Below, in pieces: positions 35,712 to 37,737 of a stretch of DNA of 64,000 bases. The first letter of the stretch is position 1; each line of letters starts with the position of its first letter. The DNA lies in assembly GCA_015179125.1 (NCBI GenBank), contig WHVA01000292.1:78704-142703 (forward strand), read 5' to 3'. The DNA is from Gautieria morchelliformis (taxonomy: Eukaryota; Basidiomycota; Agaricomycetes; Gomphales; Gomphaceae). A program made the translations under genes and the position numbers. The notes beneath the pieces were generated by a model, which saw only the letters and a list, made by a program, of their open reading frames with translations, ran no database searches and was not told where the DNA came from.

Positions 35712-37737
35712 ATGGCTGGTAACAAGAAAAAGGGTGCTAAATCTGTAGTTCCTGTGGAGCTACCCCCTGCAAACGACCCCAAAACACGTCAGCGCGACAC
35801 CCTTGACCCCAGCCTTATTATCGAAGGCAGACGCAGCCGTACCCCCTCCTCTCGACTGCGTGAAAGTGGCATACCCACTATCAAGATCCCTCCTGCATCA
35901 AGGAGGAAGGACACTGCTAACGCGTCCACCAACAAACGCGGTGCTGGATCTACACCGTCCATCGCCAAATCCAGTGCCTCCACTGAGGATGGGGCTACTT
36001 CTAAAGGCTTTTCCACTACCCTCTCCACCACATCCACCACATCCACCACATCCAAAACAATCCTCACAGCCAAAGTGCCTGCGTCCCTGAAAACGCGCCT
36101 GGCTGATGACGTCGCAGCCAAGCAGCACCTCAGTGTGGTCCCCGAGGACAGCGAGGATGAGCATGATGTCCCCAGTGATAACGACGGTCTGGGAGCCGCT
36201 GAGGATGACGATATAGAGTATGTGGATGAGGACGAGGACGATGAAGCGTCTAGCACCAAGGGTACCACGGAATCTTCGTCATCTCCTCCACCTCAGCCTC
36301 CAAAGAAGAAGGGTAAGGCAGTAAGCAAAGGAAAAGAAACTGCAAAGGGTGCTTTGCCTGACTGTGAGTGTTTTCTTTCTTTTTTTTCTTTTTTTTTTTC
36401 TTTTCTTATTTTATGCTTACCGACCTAATTTTTTATAGTAATTAAATTTGTCATACCATTCTGTAACCAAGTAGGGGTAATCGCTAATCGAATGCACTAC
36501 GTTGAGTTGATGAGCACCCTCGCCACCGCAAAGTCAACGCTTCATTATCTGCTTGGCCTGTATGCGATCCCTGAGGAGAAAAGGACCGGGCTCGTAACGC
36601 ACTTCTACAAGGACCCAGCCAAACGCTGCTTTGCGCTGGAGACGGAGGATGATTGGTTGGCCTTGAAGGCCGAGTGGGTAAACCAGGTGGCGAAAAGGGG
36701 TGTGGAAGCTTGTATTGACATTGTCCTTCCCCCCAAGGTAAGTTTTTTTTTCTTTCTTTCTCATCATTGATTTAAACTAATGCACTCTAATACAGTTCTT
36801 TCAATTTCTAGAGGAGGCAGTCAAAGCACAGACCGGTGCCACCGCAGGTAAACCGAAGGCTAAAAAGAAGGAGCTGGTCAACCCGTTCCTTTCGCAGAAA
36901 GAACCGGTTGAATCTGAAATTCCGGACAAACGAGCCCTCAATGCGAACTCACCCGAATACGAAGCTCAGCTGCAAAAGCTGCTCGAGATCTGGCCTTGCG
37001 ATCAACACGTCGACTCGATCTGCATGGTGCGTGCCTTCAACGGGCACCACAAAGTCATTAATTATGAAGGGGAGTTAATTTGGGTAATACAACTGGTATC
37101 TTTCTGTGTTTTCTTTCCTTTACCATTCATTTACTCAGCAATTCATCGATAGATGAAGAATACGCCGGGTGTTGACCTCAACACGCCACCCAATGTGGAC
37201 TACTTCAAATTTTTTCACTACAGGCCTGGTGGTGCAAACCCGGCGGCATCCAACTATGCACGTTGCGGTGGAACAAGGTATGTTAGCAATGAGCCGATGC
37301 CACAGCCTACCCCCGCCCCCCCACCTGCCATCAACATCAATTTTCCCCCGGAGGTGTTTCAGGCATTCCGTGCCAACTCGCAACCACCGAAGCGATCTCG
37401 TTCAACAGAGGCTGTGATGAGTACCCCTGACAAGGTGGATACTCATGCGCAGATTGTACCAACCATCAGGGACTGGCTCATGGAGCTGGAGAGCCGGCGA
37501 GAACTGAATTATTATACCAGGTGGGATTTTCTGTGCAGCAGATTTGAAGCTGAGGAGTGCCTTGATGTCACCATTACACGCATTGCAAGGATACCGCTGG
37601 AGTCTCTGAAGATATGTTATGAGCTCAAAGTTGTAGATGCACTGTTTCTGGTAGAGCAGCTTGAGGAAGCTGGCAAGAGGTATGGTTTTGGAGTGGGAGG
37701 TGGGCAGAAGGGGGCCAAGAAGGCTAAACATTACTAG
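35712..37737 (+). CDS. passenger gene of the IS630-like transposon, unknown function
   Basis: Four exons, 35712-36363, 36439-36737, 36796-37083 and 37153-37737, sum to exactly 1824 nt (607 residues). All three introns have GT-AG borders and no stop interrupts the join. Residues 1-150 are disordered, Ser/Thr/Lys rich, starting MAGNKKKGAKSV; about 165-200 is a highly acidic tract (EDDDIEYVDEDEDDEA); then a basic stretch (PPKKKGKAVSKGKE) that could be a nuclear signal. A central domain (about 220-410) includes MHYVELMSTLATAKSTLHYL and WPCDQHVDSICMVRAF. The C-terminal ~80 residues form a helical, SAM-like unit: PTIRDWLMELESRRELNYY, EAEECLDVTITRIARIPLES, LKICYELKVVDALFLVEQLE. I do not recognise the protein. 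Its 3' end is duplicated in inverse orientation at 38981-39273. Confidence 0.75.

Follow-up and report, generated by a model that had tools for sequence, protein, structure and literature searches.

A Tc1/mariner transposon of Gautieria morchelliformis carries a second, spliced gene that recurs beside related transposases

Analysis of a 64,000-nucleotide stretch of the Gautieria morchelliformis genome (hereafter the window) showed a whole transposon of ∼6.1 kb at positions 35124 to 41246, flanked by TA at 35122-35123 and 41247-41248. It is bounded by long terminal inverted repeats (TIRs), the left on the plus strand at 35122 to 35639 and the right on the minus strand at 40728 to 41248 (both counted with the TA), which are 94.5% identical over ∼520 nt and 98% identical across the outer 412 nt. 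The left arm holds the upstream region of a passenger gene and the right arm that of a transposase gene. The passenger ATG (35712) is 73 nt past the left arm and the transposase ATG (40702, minus strand) is 26 nt past the right arm; because the two start codons lie just inside opposite TIRs, the genes converge. Between them are a 9-bp minisatellite (37822 to 38980) and an inverted, 91% identical copy of the passenger 3′ end (37516 to 37885), placed on the minus strand at 38918 to 39274 in the same sense as the transposase. This duplicate is present in further copies of the element too, as exon 4 fragments on the minus strand, and given its orientation the two transcripts may have common 3′ ends as well as common promoters. 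The element tip reads TA followed by CAGCTATTTCGGG, with identical ends in all seven two-ended and all 14 one-ended copies inspected. TA was found on both sides of seven out of seven two-ended elements, as read from occupied sites; in L027, where the right arm is slightly damaged, the right-end TA was read just beyond the damaged arm. The flanks of the window copy contain a 12-bp direct repeat (TAAAATTCTTCC), which was considered as a longer target duplication; by eye it is missing from the other six two-ended elements, and TA was therefore kept as the target duplication.

The passenger gene runs on the plus strand from the ATG at 35712 to a stop codon at 37735-37737, as the first-pass annotation had claimed, and the four exons joined in that annotation indeed add up to 1,824 nt, or 608 codons including the stop (607 amino acids), with zero internal stops. 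One junction was revised. The exon 3 end originally placed at 37083 (donor 37084) was replaced by a donor at 37096 (GTATCT), giving a model of 612 codons and 611 amino acids. The new donor is better supported because all 12 aligned copies have GT at 37096 (compared to 11 of 12 at 37084, where L017 has GC) and because the extra residues, WVIQL, correspond to a WVLEL kept in the annotated relatives P0003, P0016, and P0017. Exon 1 (35712 to 36363), which is the least conserved, encodes a basic, Ser/Thr-rich region, an acidic tract, and a second basic stretch; exon 2 (36439 to 36737) is the most conserved; exon 3 (36796 to 37095) encodes a basic stretch and a C-x2-H-x4-C-x7,8-H motif; and exon 4 (37153 to 37737) includes the stop codon. 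The GT/AG pairs of introns 1 and 3 and the AG of intron 2 are retained in 12 of 12 copies, as is the GT of intron 2, for which L015 needs a 1-base shift of the alignment. It is hardly credible, then, that the spliced gene is an artefact of frame joining, given these splice sites, the same junction in the independently annotated relatives, and a relative in another genus.

The transposase gene lies on the minus strand in five exons: exon 1 (40457 to 40702; helix-turn-helix region), exon 2 (40256 to 40396), exon 3 (40012 to 40205; first catalytic Asp region, its end set from the exon length), exon 4 (39778 to 39961), and exon 5 (39502 to 39724; catalytic Glu region). The frame-breaking deletion reported earlier in this gene is real: exon 4 measures 184 nt, compared to 204 nt in eight out of eight other copies examined, so that 20 bp are lost and the frame is broken. 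Among the nine copies read, only L009 gave an uninterrupted protein with a start codon (335 amino acids). L010 has an open frame that lacks a start codon, and the remaining copies contain stops, a frame break, or an insert. The L009 protein matches PF13358 (DDE_3) with an E value of 3.7e-28 (98.7 bits; cut-off, 28.6), and even exon 5 of the window copy matches DDE_3 with an E value of 8.8e-9. Its catalytic triad is complete, with DD34E spacing by hand count. HTH_33, HTH_32, and HTH_23 match the N terminus of the L009 protein, all below their cut-offs.

The passenger copies are also in mixed condition. In the comparison of 12 (nine of subfamily A1 and three of subfamily A2), two copies (the window and L013) run their full length without a stop under the 611-amino-acid model, nine have stops or frame breaks, and L012 is open as far as its truncated end; the L009 passenger is a single short deletion away from an open frame. 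In the window, then, the passenger is intact and the transposase is broken; in L009 the situation is the opposite, and no element with both genes intact was seen among the nine whose transposase was read. The state of the window copy could be taken to mean that it is a domesticated host gene outliving its transposase, one of the roles proposed at first. However, L013 shows the same pattern elsewhere in the genome, and the left TIRs of sister copies are 97 to 99% identical to that of the window, which points to a recent copy. Nothing singles out the window copy, and we consider its domestication very improbable.

To what extent the passenger accompanies the transposase can be seen in the host assembly (122 Mb; 1,113 contigs). 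At least 40 places there match the left TIR. Of 20 stretches read around TIR matches, six contain the two genes together with the two TIRs (L009, L010, L013, L017, L025, and L027), and L020 and L021 are two parts of one interrupted element on contig C281. The passenger is found with one TIR and no transposase in L011, L012, and L015, and L026 likewise has the passenger and one TIR. The transposase is found with one TIR in L014 and L028, and in the last six there is a TIR alone. In two pairs of these TIR-only loci, L016/L019 and L023/L024, the flanks are the same or nearly so; the pairs may have arisen by duplication of a locus, may be alternative haplotypes, or may reflect insertions into the same repeat. 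Among A1 copies, passenger-side TIRs are 96 to 99% like the left arm of the window (L020, 94%) and transposase-side arms just 91 to 96%; the two arms have remained separate lineages.

Passenger exon 4 alone has 116 matches in the assembly at an E value of ≤0.001, with identities from 100% down to 26%. For co-location, 150 matches to the transposase N terminus were sorted into 79 loci of passenger-bearing classes (A, with its two subfamilies, B, C, and D) and 42 loci of a sister class, and 29 unassigned matches were left out. A convergent passenger lies within 8 kb of 47 of the 79 loci (one more has a passenger in another orientation, and 31 have none listed), compared to zero of the 42 sister-class loci (one in another orientation and 41 with none), a contrast to be taken as a description of two groups of transposases and not as a blinded comparison, because the classes were split by hand from a ranked list using rank, identity, and the part matched. 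The chance expectation of a convergent passenger, assuming uniform density, is 0.26%. One of the rows left out, C715, is convergent with a passenger at ∼4.5 kb, and its inclusion would add one to the 47. Counted from the other side, 47 of 89 passenger loci have a convergent transposase and 42 have no listed one, with C818 and C911 scored among the latter although another listing has a transposase beside each. Homologues of the passenger beside related transposases, which the first-pass annotation had proposed to look for, are thus found repeatedly in the same genome. The one sister-class locus that was read, L033, contains a transposase and no recognizable passenger; a weak match to passenger exon 4 at this locus (E = 0.004) sits in a low-complexity stretch. 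The stretches searched for classes B, C, and D showed no long TIR, and the description of long TIRs applies to class A, that is, to subfamilies A1 and A2.

Further comparison showed that the two genes diverged in parallel. First, across 11 elements representing A1, A2, B, C, and D, passenger distances (0.03 to 0.77) and transposase distances (0.03 to 0.46) are correlated with an r of 0.98, a value reached by 0 of 5,000 permutations. Since copies of the same class are not independent, the weight lies on the agreement of the class trees, and both protein trees join A1 with A2 and B with C and set D apart. Second, the passenger is the more divergent of the two. For example, the distance between the window and class D is 0.41 to 0.42 for the transposase and 0.72 to 0.73 for the passenger, and passenger identity across the five classes falls to ∼27%. 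Third, the exon plan of the passenger is retained in classes B and C and mostly in class D.

The substitution pattern points to constraint between subfamilies. The dN/dS ratio of the passenger is 0.29 to 0.36 in 27 of 27 A1-A2 pairs, and that of the transposase is 0.23 to 0.27 when L009 is compared to three A2 copies. By exon, the passenger of the window compared to three A2 copies gives 0.51 to 0.54, 0.13, 0.25 to 0.30, and 0.24 to 0.28 for exons 1 to 4, respectively. These ratios are approximate, and mutation or history varies along the element, because the A1-A2 passenger dS of 0.57 to 0.61 is twice the transposase dS (0.28) and ∼2.5 to 2.7 times the intron distance (0.22) of the same elements. 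CpG decay would account for part of this excess at most, and exchange between elements is a possible contributor. Divergence drops once CpG sites are excluded. With these sites removed, the contrast by codon position remains in the comparison with L025, where 120 of 484 third positions differ compared to 66 of 521 second positions. Among recent copies the picture is weaker. In L013, 23 of 611 third and 17 of 611 second positions differ, the dN/dS of A1-A1 pairs is 0.27 to 0.85 for the passenger and 0.48 to 1.24 for the transposase, and exon 4 of the window compared to L020 gives 0.87. This weak contrast is what decaying inserted copies would look like. A ratio near 1 between copies had been named at the outset as evidence against a conserved gene; the A1-A2 values are well below it, but the values among recent copies do not separate from it as clearly.

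The same data bear on whether the passenger could be a captured hitchhiker that has no function for the element. Such a gene would be expected to decay, as nine of the 12 copies did through stops or frame breaks, and to be loosely constrained, as exon 1 is. However, a hitchhiker would not readily explain an exon plan that is retained, a divergence that parallels that of the transposase over five classes, or the codon-position contrast between subfamilies, and we judge it improbable. With its TIRs, its TA ends, its recurrence beside related transposases, and this parallel divergence, the passenger matches the second conserved gene of an IS630/Tc1-like element envisaged at first, and we are highly confident that it is an integral gene of this transposon lineage.

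The protein itself gave few clues. Searches among 5.8 billion proteins returned 4, 15, and 24 proteins, and those with a species name come solely from G. morchelliformis and Ramaria rubella; four more entries (P0001, P0012, P0029, and P0032) are from other sources. Because the search requires shared 5-residue words, remoter relatives may exist. Annotated full-length relatives are P0016 and P0017 in Gautieria and P0008 in R. rubella, the last with 564 amino acids and 42% identity over 92% of the query. Profile searches of Pfam, NCBIfam, and solved structures gave no credible family, in keeping with the earlier failure to recognize one. Several candidates were rejected. FAM199X matched P0003 with an E value of 0.00085 but at 19 bits, below the cut-off of 27, in a region of the model with a Ser-rich insert. 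Ferritin and CDC45 structures gave marginal scores (E values of 0.02 to 1.3). In the exon 2 profile (36441 to 36737), the stretch HYLLGLYAIPEEKRTGLVTHFYKDPAK looks like the helices of bacterial protein A domains. Chains with tandem domains scored down to an E value of 6.5e-13, whereas shorter entries of 67 to 116 amino acids reached merely 0.02 to 1.2, and we read the score as chance aided by repeated domains and not as homology. The SAM-like C terminus described initially did not hold up, as it had no Pfam match and a comparison with a SAM profile from the same genome gave a probability of 0.2% (the profiles are shallow, and one of four SAM rows is broken). A PB1 domain in exon 2 fared similarly, with no Pfam match and a probability of 0.3% against PB1 domains of the same genome, also from shallow profiles. 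Because the profiles are shallow, these results lower the chance of a distant relation to SAM or PB1 and do not exclude it. Pfam scans of the passenger gave no match to a Myb/SANT-like domain. The best domain clue is the Cys-His-Cys-His motif of exon 3, which may bind metal. It is present in 21 of 41 family sequences (some loci having been read twice), compared to 0.005 on average in shuffled sequences; two more have the first three ligands only, and 18 have neither, many of which are fragments or models that skip exon 3.

Multi-gene members of this superfamily are already known from ciliates. The first-pass annotation had stated that elements of the superfamily normally carry only a transposase. 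This is correct insofar as a single open reading frame (ORF) is usual in Tc1 and mariner elements (PMC7325037), but TBE and Tec of ciliates, in the same superfamily, have three. A single ORF is usual and not defining for Tc1/mariner; here, a second gene recurs beside the transposase, and the three-ORF elements provide a precedent for a multi-gene member. The Gautieria element resembles an ordinary Tc1/mariner element in its DDE_3 domain, DD34E spacing, and TA ends; however, as described in the same text, the ordinary element is usually ∼1.3 kb long with one ORF and short TIRs, compared to 6.1 kb and two spliced genes here, although in some, Minos among them, the TIRs reach several hundred base pairs (PMC7325037). 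TBE has three ORFs, all under purifying selection with a dN/dS of 0.1 to 0.3; one of them is reversed, and two are separated by tandem repeats (PMC4724952). Tec has three ORFs and TIRs of ∼700 bp (PMC7325037). The likeness extends to a DD34E transposase with extra ORFs, one in the opposite orientation, and to the intergenic tandem repeats of TBE and the long TIRs of Tec. It is a likeness of described layout, and there are differences: three ORFs in ciliate hosts compared to two genes in a fungus, second proteins of other kinds (a zinc finger/kinase ORF and a 22-kD ORF in TBE and a recombinase in Tec), and telomere-like sequence in the TBE TIRs, whereas the tip here is the sequence given above. 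From these sequence features, the element is assigned to the Tc1/mariner (IS630) superfamily and to none of the multi-gene families. The literature searched, with most subscription papers outside its coverage, contained no description of this element and no fungal multi-gene Tc1/mariner.

Two systems from other superfamilies are also instructive. MuDR of maize has two genes, promoters in long TIRs, and convergent transcription, with the mudrA transposase accompanied by mudrB, a gene of unknown function that is limited to one genus (PMC3276141). Confinement of the second gene to a narrow host group is common to MuDR and the Gautieria element. MuDR differs in its transposase superfamily (MULE), its 9-bp target duplication, and its ∼220-bp TIRs, as opposed to the DDE_3 transposase and TA ends here (PMC3276141). 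In Harbinger elements, a second protein brings the transposase into the nucleus and binds the TIRs (PMC9179366). As here, the second protein evolves faster than the transposase and their trees are congruent, but it is Myb-like, which the passenger is not by Pfam match, and the superfamily is a different one (PMC9179366). A further comparison is the sister class in the same genome, whose DDE_3 transposase (L033) is 44% identical to the L009 protein over 324 residues, yet which lacks a convergent passenger within 8 kb at 42 of 42 loci.

The layout suggests how the two genes could be expressed together. Because the long TIRs of class A each end just upstream of one gene, convergent transcription from near-identical promoters is probable, and these promoters would supply the passenger and transposase proteins simultaneously. 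CACGTG is found at 35628 to 35633, 84 bp upstream of the passenger ATG, and at 40735 to 40740, 38 bp upstream of the transposase ATG. Of 20 promoters examined from passenger-bearing elements, 19 have CACGTG, CATGTG, or CACATG at a distance of 29 to 84 bp before the start, a count in which copies inside a class are not independent; the exception, which lacks all three words, is a class C passenger. The exact CACGTG is present in 11 of the 20, and the background, given for this word alone, is 0.07 per 250 bp of fetched DNA, elements included. No CACGTG-like word was found in the one sister-class promoter examined. The site may be a candidate binding site for a host transcription factor or for a protein of the element.

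Anatomy, recurrence, parallel divergence, and between-subfamily constraint are direct observations. From them, the reading that we prefer, with a probability of roughly 0.6, is that a DD34E Tc1/mariner lineage in the Gomphales has two resident genes, of which the passenger is the second, and that the passenger protein likely acts with the transposase. Such joint action could, for instance, consist of TIR binding, aid in assembly of the complex, or help with nuclear entry. The protein is not a missing catalytic part, because the transposase is of ordinary Tc1 size and has a complete catalytic triad. A role as a DNA- or chromatin-binding accessory, one of those first suggested, is a possible candidate. 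The Harbinger precedent (PMC9179366) makes a direct transposition cofactor our first choice and anti-silencing the second, and the cofactor role is a guess that falls a little short of even odds. A counterpoint is that neither the sister class nor ordinary Tc1 elements have a gene of this kind, and yet they move. As a rule, a Tc1/mariner transposase is considered to suffice alone.

Instead of a cofactor, the passenger could encode an anti-silencing factor that acts against methylation or small-RNA silencing imposed by the host. A parallel for a second protein of this kind is VANC, encoded by the VANDAL elements of plants. There are signs of CpG decay in the element, namely, the lower divergence without CpG sites and the reading of some CACGTG words as CATGTG or CACATG, and the ordinary-sized L009 transposase with its full triad may need no catalytic help. 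The Pfam and NCBIfam scans, however, contain no domain hint of such a function, and we consider anti-silencing unlikely, though less so than a hitchhiker. Going beyond the preferred reading of a resident second gene, the element may be an obligate two-component Tc1/mariner, one that cannot transpose, or cannot escape silencing, unless it makes a protein of a new family that possibly binds zinc; this protein would have coevolved with the transposase across five or more classes, in a partnership that may predate the Gautieria/Ramaria split. This extension is tentative and on balance doubtful. The two-gene lineage would be a multi-gene branch of Tc1/mariner beyond ciliates, parallel to MuDR and Harbinger, and it supplies an origin for proteins annotated as hypothetical in Gautieria and Ramaria. 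With a second gene kept over deep divergence and a sister lineage without one in the same genome, it also offers a natural experiment on the role of a second gene.

Several observations concern the surroundings of the transposon. An amino acid permease-like frame ends on the plus strand at 31872 to 32393 (AA_permease_2; E = 3e-20). One or more fragments of an HsbA (hydrophobic surface binding protein A) gene adjoin the transposon on the minus strand at 33606 to 34326, with an HsbA match at 33606 to 33926 (E = 2.7e-8; 34.7 bits; cut-off, 33.5). Sequences on both sides of the transposon, at 34842 to 34900 and 41963 to 42100, match 54076 to 54265 at 98%, as if the transposon were nested inside another repeat. 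Finally, a short palindrome at 34516 to 34571, near-perfect by eye (agcgagctatcaaaatac...gtattttgatagctcgct), is perhaps a small unrelated element.
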